Positions 905 to 6,540 of a stretch of DNA of 6,540 bases are shown one piece after another. The notes under the pieces were generated by a model, which was not told the DNA's origin, did no database searches, and worked only from the letters and a program-made list of their open reading frames with translations. A program made the translations under genes and the position numbers. Location: NCBI GenBank assembly GCA_012031955.1, contig JAAURZ010000136.1, positions 1-6,540 of the forward strand, given 5' to 3'. Positions within the stretch are counted from its first letter, which is position 1. Each line of letters begins with the position of its first letter. Source of the DNA: Bacteroidia bacterium (GTDB lineage: Bacteria > Bacteroidota > Bacteroidia > Cytophagales > Cyclobacteriaceae).

Positions 905-1268
905 ATGAGCAAGCAAATTATACGGTTCGTACTTTTTTTCCTTGCCCTTGAATGTGTCGCCCCCGCATTGATAGAAAAGGGCGATGCGCGGGGAACCATA
1001 CCATTCTCATTTTCAAAAAAAGGAGACGTCCTCCATCTTCTCCAACACGTTGCTGAACACTTCCCTTGAAGAAAAGGGAGAAGAAGAAACCGATCCGCAG
1101 CCTGCGGTCGTGTTGATAGACTTCACCAAGTTGCCTGTCCTTCTTTCGAGGGCTCACACCGTTACACACTTCCGGCCATTTGCCAGACAACATCGAGACC
1201 TCGCGACTTCCGGTCTTCCTGCGCATCTGCCTTCTTCAAATTTGAGTCTCGCTAAGCCGGCGCTGTAG
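905..1268 (+). CDS. Small secreted hypothetical protein, frame broken at A7
   Basis: The ATG at 905 opens a frame that begins MSKQIIRFVLFFLALECVAP, with a basic N-tip and a hydrophobic run like a signal peptide or lipid-anchored export signal. This frame stops at a TGA near 1067-1069, but a neighbouring frame carries on to the TAG at 1266-1268 with an acidic stretch (SLEEKGEEETDPQP), then VVLIDFTKLPVLL and a His/Arg-rich tail. Dropping one A from the seven-A run at 1015-1021 joins both into about 120 residues. The build (export signal, short acidic linker, no obvious catalytic motif) is like the many short secreted proteins of unknown function in Bacteroidota. Its start overlaps the end of an upstream open frame as ATGA. 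A terminator-like hairpin follows. No function can be assigned, and a shadow frame on the other strand is a weaker alternative. Confidence 0.4.
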
Positions 1269-1277
1269 CGCCCGGCC

Positions 1278-1306
1278 ACCTGTCTCACCGGCAGGTTCTT
1301 TTTCTT
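1278..1306 (+). terminator. Rho-independent terminator-like hairpin
   Basis: A stem of 7 pairs is formed by ACCTGTC (1278-1284) and GGCAGGT (1290-1296), with one G-U pair and a 5-nt loop. It is followed directly by TCTTTTTCTT (1297-1306). It lies 9 nt after the stop codon of the small secreted protein and about 100 nt before the SulP start, so it would separate the two transcripts. A GC-rich imperfect inverted repeat (about 1256-1276) lies just before it. Confidence 0.5.
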
Positions 1307-1403
1307 AGACATTTTTAATGCTGCACCCCGATCATGCACACGTGGCATTTCGGAAAATCTCCAACCACTTCATGATTACGGCTGGTGTGAGCGAAACTCA
1401 AAT

Positions 1404-1415
1404 TATTCATGAATA
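1404..1415. repeat. 12-bp perfect palindrome over the SulP start codon
   Basis: TATTCATGAATA reads the same on both strands and contains the proposed ATG at 1409-1411. A further TTCATGA occurs about 37 nt upstream (near 1369). The palindrome could be an operator for a dimeric regulator or a short RNA structure at the ribosome entry site, but a palindrome of this size in AT-rich DNA can also be chance. Confidence 0.3.
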
Positions 1416-3609
1416 CTAAAAAATATCTATTCCTAAAGAAGGCTTAGCCGGCCTCAAAGAAAATTGGAAGAGTGACGCAATAGCTGGTTTTATGGTCTTC
1501 CTGCTTGCACTGCCCCTCAGCCTGGGCATCGCCAAAGCAAGCGAATTCCCTCCTGCCATGGGCGTGCTTACGGCCATGATTGGCGGGCTGGTAGTTGGAA
1601 TTTTTCAGGGCGGCAGGCTCACCATCAAAGGCCCTGCTGCCGGGCTCATCACCGTTTGCTCTGGCGCTGTGCTCGGCCTCGGCGGCGGCGAGCAAGGCTG
1701 GCGCCTCGCCGGCGGCGTAATTGTTGTGACGGCGGCCATACAGATTGTGTTCGGCCTCCTGAAGTTCGGAAAGCTCAGCGACTTCTTTCCACACTCGGCG
1801 GTCCACGGCATGCTTGCTGCTATCGGCATTATCATTTTCGCCAAACAGATACCCATCCTGCTCGGCGTGCCCGATCTCGCCAAAGGCCTCAGCCCGGTGC
1901 AACTGTACCTGCACATACCTCAATTCATCACACATCTCAACCTGCAGATCACCATCATCGGTATCACCAGCTTGCTTATTCTGTTCGGCTTGCCGGCGCT
2001 TAAAATAAAACTGCTCAAGAAAGTACCGGGCCCTCTCATCGTGTTGTTCGTGTCGGTACCGCTGGCGCTTGCAATGGATTTCAAAACAACACAAGCAAAG
2101 AGCGCACTGGTAAGCATCGGCAATTTTTGGGGAAGTGTCGGCTTCAACGCCAGCTTCGATGCCATCGGCAGTTTCGTGTTCTGGAAGTTCGTGTTCATGT
2201 TCCTCTTTGTGAACAGCCTGGAGTCGTTGCTCACCGTGAAAGCAATTGACGGCCTCGATCCTTACCAACGAAAATCCAACTACAACAAAGACCTTACCGC
2301 ATTGGGCGTAGGCAACGGCGTGGCTGGTATTCTCGGTGGTTTGCCCATGATCTCGGAAGTGGTACGCAGCGCGGCCAACGTAAACTTCGGGGGAAAAACC
2401 AATTGGGCCAACGTGTTCCATGGTCTATTCCTGTTCCTTGCCATGCTGCTCATGATACCGCTCATAGAGTTGATACCCAACGCGGCATTGGCAGCCATGC
2501 TGATTTTTGCCGGCTATCGGCTTGCCTCACCGAAGGAATTTATCGGCGCCTATAAAATCGGTCCCGAACAACTTGTGATCTTCCTGGTGACAATCGCCGT
2601 AACCGTGGCAGAAGACCTCATGCTCGGCGTATTCTGTGGCATCATTGTAAAATTCATCTTCCACCTTGTGAACGGCGCACCCTTCAAGACCCTCTTCAAG
2701 GCCGACTACGATGTAGTGACCAACCATGATGGCTACAAAGTAACCGTAAAAGGTGCGGCTACTTTTTCCAACGTGATCGGCTATAAGAAACTTTGGAACG
2801 GATTCAGCCGGGGCAAAAACATTGTCTTCAATTTCTCAGGCGCCAGGCTGGTAGACCACTCCTTCATGGAGCAGTTGCATCATTTTGAAGACGACTACCA
2901 AACCACGGGCGGCCACGTCGCTTGGCTTGGGCTTGAAAAATTCAGTCCTTATTCAAACCATCCGCTGGCAGCGCGCAAGGTCGCCAAGCAGAGTGCCAAC
3001 AAGTTTGAGATCAGGCTCAATGAAAGACAGATAGAACTGCGCGCTTTCGCGGATGCAAACGACTTCACCTTCTACCCTATGATCATTCGCAACGTAGCCA
3101 AGTTCAAAGACTTTCCGATTGAGAAAGGTACGCGAATCATGTACGAAGAGAACATTCTTTCCACCTACATGGAAAACGGGAAAGTGGAAGTGTCTGACAT
3201 CACGCTTACGGAAGGTGCAGGCATGGCACGCGAAGACACGCACATTACGGTGCTGCATTACTCCGACCTCGATCTTGCGATGCCCGACTTTGCACTTGAA
3301 CCGGAGCACATCTGGACGAAACTCACAGACTTGCCGTTCGGTCACGACATCGACTTCGAAAACCATCCACAGTTTTCGCACAAGTATTTTCTCAGGGGTG
3401 AGGATACGCAAGCCATCCGCGCCATGTTCGACGAACGGGTTATAGGCTTCCTGGAAACACATGAGCCGATACATGTAGAGTGTCACAAAAACAAGCTGTT
3501 GTTTTACCTGCGCCGAGACCTGCTGACTGCGGAAGACATTCAGTTCATGATCGCCCTGGCAAACAACTTCATGGCTATTGTGCAACCGCAGCCTGCAGAA
3601 CTGGGATAA
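1409..3609 (+). CDS. SulP anion (bicarbonate-type) transporter with STAS and extra C-terminal domain
   Basis: This is an inner-membrane SulP/SLC26-family permease. Members move bicarbonate, sulfate or other anions, often coupled to Na+ or H+; BicA of cyanobacteria is the bicarbonate example. From the internal Met at 1492 the body is 705 codons without interruption. Conserved SulP sequence starts earlier, in the same frame from 1420 (GLAGLKENWKSDAIAGF), and no start codon lies between. Adding one A to the run at 1418-1423 connects it to ATG 1409, giving about 733 residues. Counting from that ATG, residues 22-425 are the membrane core, with the family motif LTIKGPAAGL near 71-80 and several hydrophobic helices. 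Residues about 433-520 form a STAS domain (FNFSGARLVDHSFMEQLHHF). Residues about 525-733 are an extra soluble domain with the signature HKYFLRGEDTQAIRAMF near the end; ordinary relatives stop soon after STAS. The carbonic anhydrase-like gene follows after 3 nt and DabA lies in the same direction, which favours bicarbonate as substrate. Substrate is inference. Confidence 0.9.
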
Positions 3610-3612
3610 GAT

Positions 3613-4149
3613 ATGAGCTACGTCAATTACCTGGAACCGTTCCTGCGCGAGCGCAGGAGCCTGGTGATCGCGTGCCACGACTGTGACACGATCGACCTCG
3701 ATCAGCGTGCAAACGGAGTATTTGTGCATACCTGCCTCTGCTCCATGGTAAACCTCGACGATACCAGCGAAGTCAGCCTCATTCGGTATTTCATCGAGGA
3801 CCTTGCCTGCGACCAGGTCATACTGCTCGGTCACACCAACTGCAGGGCGGTAAAAGACATATTGGAGATGGGGAGGCGGCACGCGCCGCTTCGCCGTCTG
3901 CAAAGGGTAATAACGGGCGCGTGGACCGCCTCGGCATGCTGCATCCGGCACAACATGCGAATCCGCATCATGACCGAGCAAAACATAATTCACCAGGTAA
4001 GGGCAATCAGCACATTACCTTTCGTGGAAGAAAAAATAAACATGAAAACATTACAGGTAAAGGGACTTTGCTGGGATGAGGCGTCTTCGACATTCAATGA
4101 GATTTGCCGCAACAATATCGTATTCAACGATATTGTTTCACAGGGTTGA
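3613..4149 (+). CDS. Divergent beta-carbonic anhydrase-like protein
   Basis: Beta-carbonic anhydrases interconvert CO2 and bicarbonate with a zinc held by Cys, His and Cys. This 178-residue protein keeps those ligands in the right order: Cys21 with Asp23 in VIACHDCDTI, and His74 and Cys77 in ILLGHTNCRAV. The C-terminal part (TEQNIIHQVRAISTLPFVEE, then LQVKGLCWDE) matches the usual end of the fold. The motif that is normally C-x-D-x-R reads C-H-D-C-D, so the Arg that pairs with the catalytic Asp is absent at its usual place, and the following segment (VFVHTCLCSMVNLDD) also departs from the usual HRNxxN. Activity is therefore uncertain. Between residues about 101 and 118 the translation turns Cys- and Arg-rich and unlike the family, while other frames give VDRLG and AASGTTCE, so hidden indels are likely at 3915-3960. 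It starts 3 nt after SulP and must be co-translated with it; SulP-CA pairs and fusions are known. Confidence 0.75.
   Translation: MSYVNYLEPFLRERRSLVIACHDCDTIDLDQRANGVFVHTCLCSMVNLDDTSEVSLIRYFIEDLACDQVILLGHTNCRAVKDILEMGRRHAPLRRLQRVITGAWTASACCIRHNMRIRIMTEQNIIHQVRAISTLPFVEEKINMKTLQVKGLCWDEASSTFNEICRNNIVFNDIVSQG
4111..4137. repeat. Perfect 10-bp inverted repeat at the end of the CA gene
   Basis: AACAATATCG (4111-4120) and CGATATTGTT (4128-4137) are exact reverse complements around a 7-nt loop. The hairpin lies inside the last codons of the carbonic anhydrase-like gene, 65 nt before the porin start. It could act as an operator, an mRNA-stabilising hairpin at the end of the SulP-CA message, or a weak terminator; the run of T after it is only three long, which argues against a strong terminator. 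Confidence 0.55.
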
Positions 4150-4161
4150 ATCCATTATAAT
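4133..4161 (+). promoter_or_regulatory. Possible promoter for porin-dabA
   Basis: TTGTTT (4133-4138) and TATAAT (4156-4161) are separated by 17 bp, the classical spacing of a housekeeping promoter. The candidate sits in the only sizeable gap of the cluster, 41 nt before the porin ATG, and its upstream box overlaps the right arm of the inverted repeat, which is how an operator would be placed. Bacteroidota housekeeping promoters usually have TTTG and TAnnTTTG boxes instead, and I find no good match to those here, so the call is tentative. Confidence 0.35.
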
Positions 4162-4202
4162 AGATGGTATAGTCTCTTTAACCGACCAAACTTTATATTA
4201 TC

Positions 4203-5535
4203 ATGACTAAGTATTTCATCACACTCGTATTTTTTTCAATAGCATTCGCAGCACTCGCGCAAAACAAAGTAGACGAGCTGAAGTTAAACCTCAACGACGA
4301 CGGATCGCACTACATCAAGGGTACATTCCTGAACCAGACATGGATCAGGTTCAATGACAGCAATCCGGGTACAACGGTGGTGGGCGAACCGGCAGACCAG
4401 ACCTTCGATATTGGTTTGCGAAGAACGCGCATCCAGTTTTACGGTCAGATCACCGATCACGTGTTTTTCTACACCCAGTTTGGTCAGAACAATTTCAACG
4501 TTCTGTCGCAAAACGCAGGTAACAGAAAAATTCAGGCATTCTTTCACGATGCACTTTCCGAATACAAAGTCATGGAAAGAAAACGACAAACTTAAACTCG
4601 GGGCCGGGCTTACCATCACCAACGGACTGTCGCGGTTCAGTCAGCCAAGCATCGGCACCATCATGACCATGGACGTGCCGGTGTTCGCGCAGGCTACGGT
4701 AGAGCAGACCGACCAGTTTTCGCGCAAGCTAAGCGTTTATGCACGCGGCCAATTGGGCAAGCTTGACTATCGCGTAGCCATTAGCGACCCGTTTCCCGTA
4801 CAGACCAACGGCGCGACGCCACCTGCGCCAGGTCCCAGTGCCGGCTTTGCCACCTCAAAGCACACCAAGCAATTTCAGGGCTTCTTCATGTACAACATCT
4901 TCGACAAGGAAGGTCACACCACGCCGTACATGACCGGCACCTACCTTGGAAAGAAAAAAGTGTTTAACTTAGAAGCCGGCTTCATCACACAAAAAGAGGC
5001 CACATGGTCGCGCGAAACAGTCGCCTCCGACACCGTGTTCCACAGCATGAACCTTTGGTCGGTGGCGCTCTACTACGATGCGCCCCTCAACCGGGAAAAA
5101 GGCACTGCAATATCGGCGTACGCCGGGTACTTCGGCACCAACTATGGCAGGGACTACCTGCGCTACAACGGCATTATGAACCCCGGCAACGGCACCACCG
5201 ATCCGGTGTACGCCGGTAGCCAAGGCAACGCCTTCCCCATGTTCGGCACCGGCAACGTGCTGTACACACAAGTAGGTTACAAATTCAAAGACAACCTGCT
5301 GGGTGAAGAATGCGGCACACTCATGCCCTATGCATCGCTCATGCACGCCGACTTCGACAGACTCTCAGACCCGGTGGATGTATACAATGTGGGGTTGAAT
5401 TGGCTGATAAAGAACCACACCAGTAAAATCTCGCTCGACTACCAAAGCCGGCCGGTGTTTGCAACTTCCGGAGCCGACCTTGTGAACGACAGACGCAAAG
5501 GCCAACTGGTGCTACAGTACCAAGTCTATTTCTAA
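4203..5535 (+). CDS. Outer-membrane porin of the OprO/OprP type, frame broken once
   Basis: The protein starts with a clear signal peptide (MTKYFITLVFFSIAFAALAQ, cleavage likely around Ala-Gln), continues with IKGTFLNQTWIRFND and LRRTRIQFYGQITDHVFFYT, and ends in VLQYQVYF. The terminal Phe and the alternating aromatic strands are marks of an outer-membrane beta barrel. The arrangement resembles the phosphate-selective porin O/P family, which forms anion-favouring channels. The first frame stops at 4595; the neighbouring frame takes over at about 4573 (WKENDKLKLGAG). Removing one base, most simply one A of the AAA at 4566-4568, gives a barrel of about 443 residues, normal for the family. It begins 53 nt after the carbonic anhydrase-like gene and ends 22 nt before dabA, so it is probably co-transcribed with them. 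Passage of bicarbonate or another anion through the outer membrane is the natural reading, but the substrate is inferred from context alone. Confidence 0.8.
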
Positions 5536-5557
5536 GAATGAAAGAACTAACAACATA

Positions 5558-6540
5558 ATGGTCATGAATGACATACAGGACGTTCAACAGGCAGCACCTC
5601 ACAAGGCCGCCGAGTTTGATCAGGACCACGCAATCAAAGAACTGAAGCACTACCTGCCTGCGCAGGCGTCGCTGAAAGATTTTATTCACCACAATTCCTT
5701 GCACGCTTTTCAGAACCTGCCCTTTCACGAGGCGGCGCAAACTGCGACAGAATTGTTTGGATACAAGACCCGGCTTACGCTCAAAGAGTACAGGCAGTTG
5801 TATGCCGACAAAAGATAAACGACGAGGTGCTCGACGCAGTGCTCAGACAACACGCGCCCAACGACGCCGACATCTGGAAAAAAAGAATGCTGGCGACGCC
5901 CTACAGCAAGGGCACTTTGCCGCGCATCGGATCGCTTCGCGCATTTTGGAAGAAACACTACCGCATGGACATCGACGCGACTACACATTCGCTGTTGTTT
6001 CGCATTCTATGCAGCTACCTCGACCAGGGCATTTCCATGTGGCACTTTCCGGTCTGGAACAAAGGCTTCCTCGCATCGCTGGAGGAGTTGGAAAACAACA
6101 GCTACACAAGTTTCTTCCGCACCGAACGAGCAAGGCAACTGCTGCTGGAAGGAACGCACTCGATCACACATCTGCTGAAGATACTCGTAGGCGATCCTCG
6201 ACTGTATACGCACTACCTTTTCGACCAGCAGTTTGCGCACCAGGGCTGGTCGGGCCTGGTAAGCATGATTGAAGACCAACCTGAAACATTGCTCGACAAG
6301 CGCAAGATTTCCCTTCATGACCTCATATACTTCGAGCTTCTGCTGAGATAGACGTGGTCGATCAGCACTTTGGCGAGCGCTGGCGCCCGCTGCACAAAGT
6401 AGTGGACGAGTGGCCCTCCGATTTCTTCGCGCCCATTCCGCCTACGGAATACGACCAGGTGCTCAACCTGTGGCAGGACGCCATGGAGTGGAGTTACTAC
6501 GACCAGGTACTCGCGGGAATCAAACAGCGGTCGTGCATGC
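5558..6540 (+). CDS. dabA: DabA (DUF2309/UPF0753) inorganic carbon accumulation subunit, N-terminal part
   Basis: DabA is the cytoplasmic, zinc-binding, beta-CA-like subunit of DAB complexes, which with the membrane protein DabB take up and hydrate CO2 in an energy-driven way. The N-terminal DUF2309 signature is plain: HYLPAQASLKDFIHHNSLHA with FQNLPFHEA directly after, residues about 31-59. An ATG at 5564 is an alternative start. Two frame breaks occur. At the A run 5810-5813 the first frame hits TAA (5816-5818), but one more A gives ADKKINDEVLDAVLRQHAPN in the next frame. At 6345-6346 that frame hits TAG, but one more G gives LLEIDVVDQHFGERWRPLHK, open to the right edge. About 328 residues are present of a family length near 800-1000, so the Cys/Asp and His/Cys zinc-site residues lie outside the window and cannot be checked. 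The last codons (after AGIKQ) do not look typical, so another break near 6525 is possible. Confidence 0.88.

Follow-up and report, generated by a model that had tools for sequence, protein, structure and literature searches.

The window analyzed in this work, i.e., positions 1-6,540 of contig JAAURZ010000136.1 of a Bacteroidia bacterium (Cyclobacteriaceae), carries on its plus strand the genes for a SulP anion transporter, a protein related to β-carbonic anhydrases (CA-like protein; CA, carbonic anhydrase), a porin-like protein, and DabA, in this order, as found by open reading frame (ORF) and domain searches. The comparison of this locus with its relatives makes it reasonably likely that it encodes a DabAB-SulP bicarbonate-supply module, accompanied by a porin and by a partner that derives from a CA and is not catalytic; the hosts are probably heterotrophs. 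The initial annotation described a co-directional cluster of these four genes with gaps of 3, 53, and 22 nt, and the coordinates reproduce all three gaps (boundaries 3609/3613, 4149/4203, and 5535/5558). The four named genes are present. The reading frame is interrupted in SulP, porin, and DabA, the last of which is also truncated by the contig end, and a small gene at about 905-1245, likewise broken, had been overlooked. The CA-like gene is the only one of the four that is open from start to stop.

SulP, DabA, and DabB in a recurrent gene neighborhood

The neighborhood was analyzed in the best 80 of at least 569 confirmed SulP loci, picked by SulP similarity with two peptide patterns. They belong mostly to Bacteroidota, with some nitrifiers and Azotobacter, and since they were chosen by similarity and are related to each other, the counts over them are not independent. 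DabA was found in 65 of the 80 loci, DabB, which falls outside the window, in 66, the porin in 31, and DUF2490 in 20; in the subset of 55 loci flanked on each side by 5 kb or more, the corresponding figures were 49, 50, 20, and 15. The porin was always on the strand of SulP (31/31), in agreement with the linkage of both genes that had been proposed. Several orders were repeated: DabA-DabB-SulP, alone or followed by porin or DUF2490; SulP-DabA-DabB; and DabA-DabB divergent from SulP-porin. Two loci (L025 and L011) share the SulP-porin-DabA order of the window but do not contain the CA-like gene.

Among 15 fetched stretches, every one selected for carrying the CA-like gene, seven have all four parts on one strand with DabA intact. 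The order is SulP, CA-like gene, porin, other ORFs, small ORF, DabA, and DabB in four of them (L116-L119) and DabA, DabB, SulP, CA-like gene, and porin in the other three (L120, L122, and L125). In the same set, the porin is missing from L123, and L121 lacks SulP and has DabA as a fragment. Cyclobacterium jeungdonense (L024), a cultured environmental species, has the whole locus in intact form. Thus, the doubt that the order might be confined to this contig is refuted for the four-part combination, whereas the exact uninterrupted order SulP-CA-porin-DabA was not seen in any other locus examined. According to an excerpt of the 2017 COGNAT article, the neighborhood of ybcC (DabA) upstream of nuoL (DabB) often has a COG0659 sulfate permease (PMC5700660). 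The earlier statement that no description of the combination was known does not hold for this SulP-DabA-DabB core; for SulP-DabA loci with a porin, a CA-like partner, or a fusion, no description was found among the literature matches listed. The cluster recurs more often than chance would explain, and its core association was already known.

DabA and its natural fusions to SulP

The DabA domain (PF10070) was detected over its cut-off at 5558-5818 and 5827-6351 (E 7e-12 and 1.5e-18, respectively). A third piece (6354-6539; E 0.031) is under the cut-off and in register with the DabA of relatives. The frame breaks near 5815 and 6351, and the end of the window truncates the protein near profile position 276 of 747, ahead of the active site. 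The motifs C.D.R and HG..C.AC are kept in 68/68 full-length relatives (one of them a duplicate, L024/L125) with a relaxed version of the pattern, the first version having missed nine of these copies.

SulP and DabA are encoded in one uninterrupted frame in six genomes (G391/L047, G392/L052, G611, G455, G558, and G466), and two of the 80 SulP loci (L047 and L052) are among these SulP-DabA fusions. Within the family of G391, a Lewinella metagenome-assembled genome (MAG), 26 of 248 genomes have a DabA match, and in five of the 26 an open frame spans 1400-1418 amino acids; tblastn placed the SulP and DabA halves in a shared frame in each of these five genomes and in G392. The fusion of G455 is located on a 7.5 Mb contig. 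The fused proteins, of about 1380-1420 amino acids, are followed by DabB (L047, L052, L130, L131, L133, and L135). An mpsA-mpsB fusion is mentioned for one species in an excerpt of PMC6689103, but it is not the same as the SulP-DabA fusion seen here, which looks new. The presence of DabA in 65 of the 80 loci and the single-frame fusions support the functional linkage of SulP and DabA put forward in the initial annotation. From these natural fusions, we infer that SulP and DabA probably touch each other directly, a physical partnership that the fusions make directly testable.

The two genes also go together at the genome level. In the 17 genomes checked, i.e., the 16 with a CA-like gene plus G011, a DAB-type SulP was found in 14 and a full DabA in 13, all of them within those 14, and both are missing from G184 and G164.

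The CA-like protein, a probable pseudoenzyme

The Asp-Arg dyad of the CxDxR motif is catalytic in β-CAs. The window protein, whose match to PF00484 (Pro_CA) is above the cut-off, keeps all the zinc ligands (Cys21, His74, and Cys77), and its dyad is incomplete: Asp23 is kept and Arg is replaced by Asp25, with an extra Cys24 between them. We aligned 32 non-canonical sequences, near duplicates included (e.g., P0123 and L012; L081-L083, equal to L012, L002, and L024, were not re-added), with three canonical ones. None of the 32 has the Arg of CxDxR; the zinc triad Cys..His..Cys is complete in 14, and part or all of it is gone in 18, with every ligand lost in 12. The extra Cys, a Ser in the canonical sequences, was found as C-x-[DE]-C plus HxxC in 14/14 of the triad keepers and in 0/18 of the others, and it may serve as a fourth zinc ligand that closes the site. 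DabA, by contrast, keeps both of its motifs in all full-length copies.

The AlphaFold model of the window protein (pLDDT 79.7, pTM 0.80) had β-CAs as its best Foldseek matches, 6gwu among them (E 1.5e-10, TM 0.73). The model of the ligand-free L012 protein, built from an alignment containing ligand-keeping members, also matched β-CAs, more weakly (pLDDT 75; root-mean-square deviation of 5-10 Å to the 50 listed). The ratio of nonsynonymous to synonymous substitution rates (dN/dS; plain Nei-Gojobori) was 0.074-0.213 in six CA-like pairs, which are partly dependent as L095 was used twice, and it was 0.131 and 0.213 in the two pairs without His and the second Cys. For the SulP and porin genes of these loci, compared in six pairs, the ratio was 0.019-0.063. 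Thus, at least these partly degenerate copies are maintained by selection, under a somewhat weaker constraint than the neighboring genes. The loss of Arg and of zinc ligands together with these low ratios indicates that the family is probably one of pseudoenzymes, and suggests a helper rather than an enzyme. Such a CA-derived, selected, and probably non-catalytic partner also looks new. If this is true, a CA fold that selection maintains although its chemistry is gone would represent an unusual type of pseudoenzyme, with a possible role as inorganic-carbon sensor or scaffold.

Distribution of the CA-like gene

A single-sequence search with the window protein gave only one relative, 84% identical, out of 35 candidates, and a search with a five-sequence profile listed 17 proteins, query included. 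We then sampled 390 genomes, the family of G009 (the Chryseolinea MAG that carries L012), scoring eight candidates per genome. The CA-like profile matched with E <= 1e-12 in 34 of them, at least 16 of which (E <= 2.1e-20) belong to the CA-like family; among the remaining 18, all of the 14 that were inspected at the locus level score as ordinary CAs. The CA-like gene is directly before the porin in 15/16 cases and directly after SulP in 13/16, and the gene preceding it is a small ORF in L087 and L088 and a DabA fragment in L094. In L121 (G258), which has no DAB-type SulP, DabA fragments lie immediately 5' of the CA-like gene, in what appears to be a deletion in the locus.

Host metabolism and other carbonic anhydrases

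RuBisCO was not found in any of the 17 genomes, using a test that recovered 5 of 14 known RuBisCO genomes. For these relatives, this fits the heterotrophic host proposed as probable in the initial annotation, and the hosts of such loci are probably heterotrophs. A further strong PF00484 match was present in 17/17 genomes (best Pro_CA domain score of at least 141 bits), and in 16 of them, according to the coordinates, a separate SulP adjoins a strong Pro_CA match elsewhere in the genome. In an excerpt of PMC8567241, MpsAB and CA are said to coexist seldom within one species, whereas 13 of the 17 genomes pair DabA with a strong Pro_CA match.

SulP and its neighbors

The SulP domain of the window (PF00916) reached 180 bits in the Pfam search, with a cut-off of 23.2. 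The gene body is open as 1492-3609, in a different frame from the ATG at 1409. A relative of this SulP is 71% identical. This Cyclobacteriaceae-type SulP is a long form whose last ~200 codons constitute a C-terminal extension that is absent from the 530-amino-acid forms and in which no Pfam domain was detected. An extra ORF of 124-125 amino acids is found directly before SulP in L116 (12028-12399, minus strand), L119 (12177-12551, minus strand), and L117 (6678-7049, plus strand). The L116/L119 ORF gave no match over the cut-off in Pfam and NCBIfam, and a likeness to NuoC, which was our impression, was not confirmed. Besides its DAB-type locus, G010 has a 783-amino-acid open frame (G010:C11:918830-920959) in which a SulP match precedes a weaker one to Pro_CA (38.6 bits), apparently a SulP-CA fusion.

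Alternative readings of the locus

The second gene was initially taken for an ordinary CA, an active β-CA chained with SulP and DabA in a relay from the outer membrane to the cytoplasm. The two zinc Cys residues, His, and Asp retained in the window copy, the PF00484 match and the β-CA fold, and the SulP genes that adjoin an intact CA elsewhere (e.g., L028, L034, L035, and L080) are in line with this relay. We nevertheless regard it as unlikely, and an ordinary CA is not supported, given the absence of the catalytic Arg from all 32 sequences, the incomplete triad of 18 of them, and the other strong Pro_CA match of each of the 17 genomes; in addition, the kept triads are always accompanied by the extra Cys, a possible fourth zinc ligand. 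A decay of the locus in the window organism, in which the six frame changes that affect the small ORF, SulP, porin, and DabA within 905-6540 would mark pseudogenes, seems similarly improbable. Of 216 columns without variation in 26 other sequences, the window SulP departs at 5, and these sequences themselves depart at 0-7 each. Breaks scattered across several genes resemble contig errors more. The SulP protein thus looks constrained, and the frame changes are more likely to stem from errors in the contig.

It is also conceivable that SulP moves sulfate or another anion and that its position beside DabA reflects co-regulation only. The PF00916 family takes several substrates (excerpt of PMC10880623), the window SulP scores far below the cut-off of the BicA model of NCBIfam (NF050096; 97.6 bits with a cut-off of 880), and, of the two SulP proteins of Thiomicrospira pelophila tested in CA-less Escherichia coli, the carboxysome-linked one rescued the strain and the other did not (excerpt of PMC12628692). 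This explanation appears very unlikely to us in view of the DabA linkage in 65 of the 80 loci, nitrifiers included, of the joint absence of SulP and DabA from G184 and G164, and of the SulP-DabA fusions. The substrate that we infer for SulP is bicarbonate.

Several observations weigh against the bicarbonate-supply module with a non-catalytic partner that we favor. Six of the 15 fetched stretches have no DabA inside the stretch, and G019 has SulP and the CA-like gene and no DabA match. L114 and L115 (G184 and G164) retain the CA-like gene, the porin, and the small ORF in genomes without DAB-type SulP and DabA, and thus the CA-like protein cannot work solely via SulP or DabA. The SulP score is far under the cut-off of the BicA model, and in the window the frames of SulP, porin, and DabA are interrupted. 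Finally, the dN/dS pairs cover none of the 12 sequences without all three ligands, and the window CA-like protein still has Cys, Asp, His, and Cys, so that some residual activity is possible.

Proposed function and comparison with known systems

In the module that we propose from these comparisons, DabA and DabB (beyond the window) would carry out the vectorial hydration of CO2 to bicarbonate, and the adjacent SulP, probably touching DabA, would move bicarbonate. The porin would provide entry at the outer membrane, and the small membrane/acidic protein would be an accessory. The CA-derived protein would most likely be a structural or regulatory partner, probably without a normal CA function. 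A more elaborate version is doubtful, although worth stating: SulP, DabA, and DabB might form a supercomplex, with the CA-derived pseudoenzyme, either with a closed Cys3His zinc site or zinc-free, as regulator or carbon sensor, together with a dedicated porin and the small acidic membrane protein. The coupling of DabAB to bicarbonate transport, and the use of DabAB by heterotrophs, is an unsettled question on which this locus bears.

The locus resembles the DAB/DAC/MpsAB systems in the DabA N-terminus of the window and in the DabA-DabB pair beside SulP in most of the 80 loci, and MpsAB works in a non-autotroph (excerpts of PMC6689103 and PMC8567241). An excerpt of PMC13144422 contrasts DAB, as an ion-driven vectorial CO2 hydration system, with MpsAB, for which a Na+/HCO3- symport has been proposed. 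The loci described here differ from these systems by the addition of SulP, even as a fusion, of a porin or DUF2490, of the small acidic membrane protein, and of the CA-derived partner. The ybcC-nuoL-COG0659 neighborhood has the same core, i.e., ybcC (DabA), nuoL (DabB), and a sulfate-permease-like gene, but the excerpted text names no porin, CA-like gene, small ORF, or fusion, and the function was then unknown (PMC5700660).

The fold of the CA-like protein is that of β-CAs such as 6gwu, 9s4g, and the Haemophilus influenzae enzyme, but the identity is about 20% and CxDxR is lost here. SulP-CA pairs and fusions were reportedly described by Felce and Saier in 2004. The position of a CA-fold gene immediately after SulP is similar, whereas the CA-like proteins of our loci have no catalytic Arg, often lack zinc ligands, and, with 174-180 amino acids, miss the N-terminal part.

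A small leader protein upstream of DabA/SulP runs

A small ORF of 85-165 amino acids, hydrophobic near its N-terminus and with an acidic patch, immediately precedes 62 of the 91 first genes of DabA/SulP runs, compared with 1 of 469 other genes of the same stretches; the criteria were strict and were set after the ORFs had been seen, and the loci are related. The 29 first genes that lack it include six proteobacterial loci (L016, L018, L021-L023, and L040), and several of these 29 cases show the small ORF by eye (e.g., L003, L007, L020, and L032). In the window, it starts at 905, has its acidic patch in a second frame, and stops at 1243-1245 in a third one, the C-terminus being assigned by eye. 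A profile of 14 relatives matched frame +2 from ~902 (E 8e-4) and frame +3 from ~1002 (E 0.013), both matches being weak and collinear; its position is the one usual for such loci. No small ORF gave a match over the cut-off in Pfam and NCBIfam. A small leader protein typical of the Bacteroidota DabA/SulP loci is a new point. The small ORF has a conserved C-terminus, and another version, with a PPPR-like end, precedes some second SulP genes.

The hairpin located between the small ORF and SulP (Table 1) is one of two terminator-like hairpins found in this region of the window, with 0.7 expected; hairpins of this type were found in 13 of 65 regions of relatives, whereas mononucleotide shuffles predict 2.3. 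A mechanism of transcription attenuation involving the small ORF and this hairpin was discarded, since the hairpins are in excess but are not a general feature.

Porin and other features of the window

The porin-like protein changes frame near 4570-4595. The NCBIfam model porin_ExtI gave 31.5 bits for the window protein and 53.7 bits for that of L025, both below the cut-off of 150; Pfam gave no match for the window protein, and the match produced by a PDB sequence search with the L025 porin was at chance level (E 0.68). Among the 80 loci, the 31 with a porin and the 20 with DUF2490 did not overlap, as if they were interchangeable outer-membrane parts.

Table 1. Features annotated in the 6,540-nt window.
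Feature	Position	Strand	Evidence
Small membrane/acidic protein gene	905-1245	+	Broken over three frames; two weak collinear profile matches
Hairpin resembling a terminator, followed by a T-rich tail, between the small ORF and SulP	1278-1306	+	Significance doubtful
SulP anion transporter of the long, C-terminally extended form	1409-3609	+	PF00916, E 8e-53
β-Carbonic-anhydrase-derived protein, 178 amino acids	3613-4149	+	PF00484, E 1e-14; β-CA fold
Outer-membrane porin-like protein	4203-5535	+	NCBIfam porin_ExtI, E 8e-8, below cut-off; homologues near relatives' SulP
DabA N-terminal third, in three frames, ending at the window edge	5558-6540	+	PF10070

The window DNA had no match in the plasmid collection and no SulP relative was found in the viral contigs, and thus there is no sign of a mobile or viral origin in those collections; Rfam gave no match for the window either. 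On the minus strand, two overlapping open frames at 311-575, with sub-threshold Pfam matches, look by eye like a single frame-broken winged-helix regulator.

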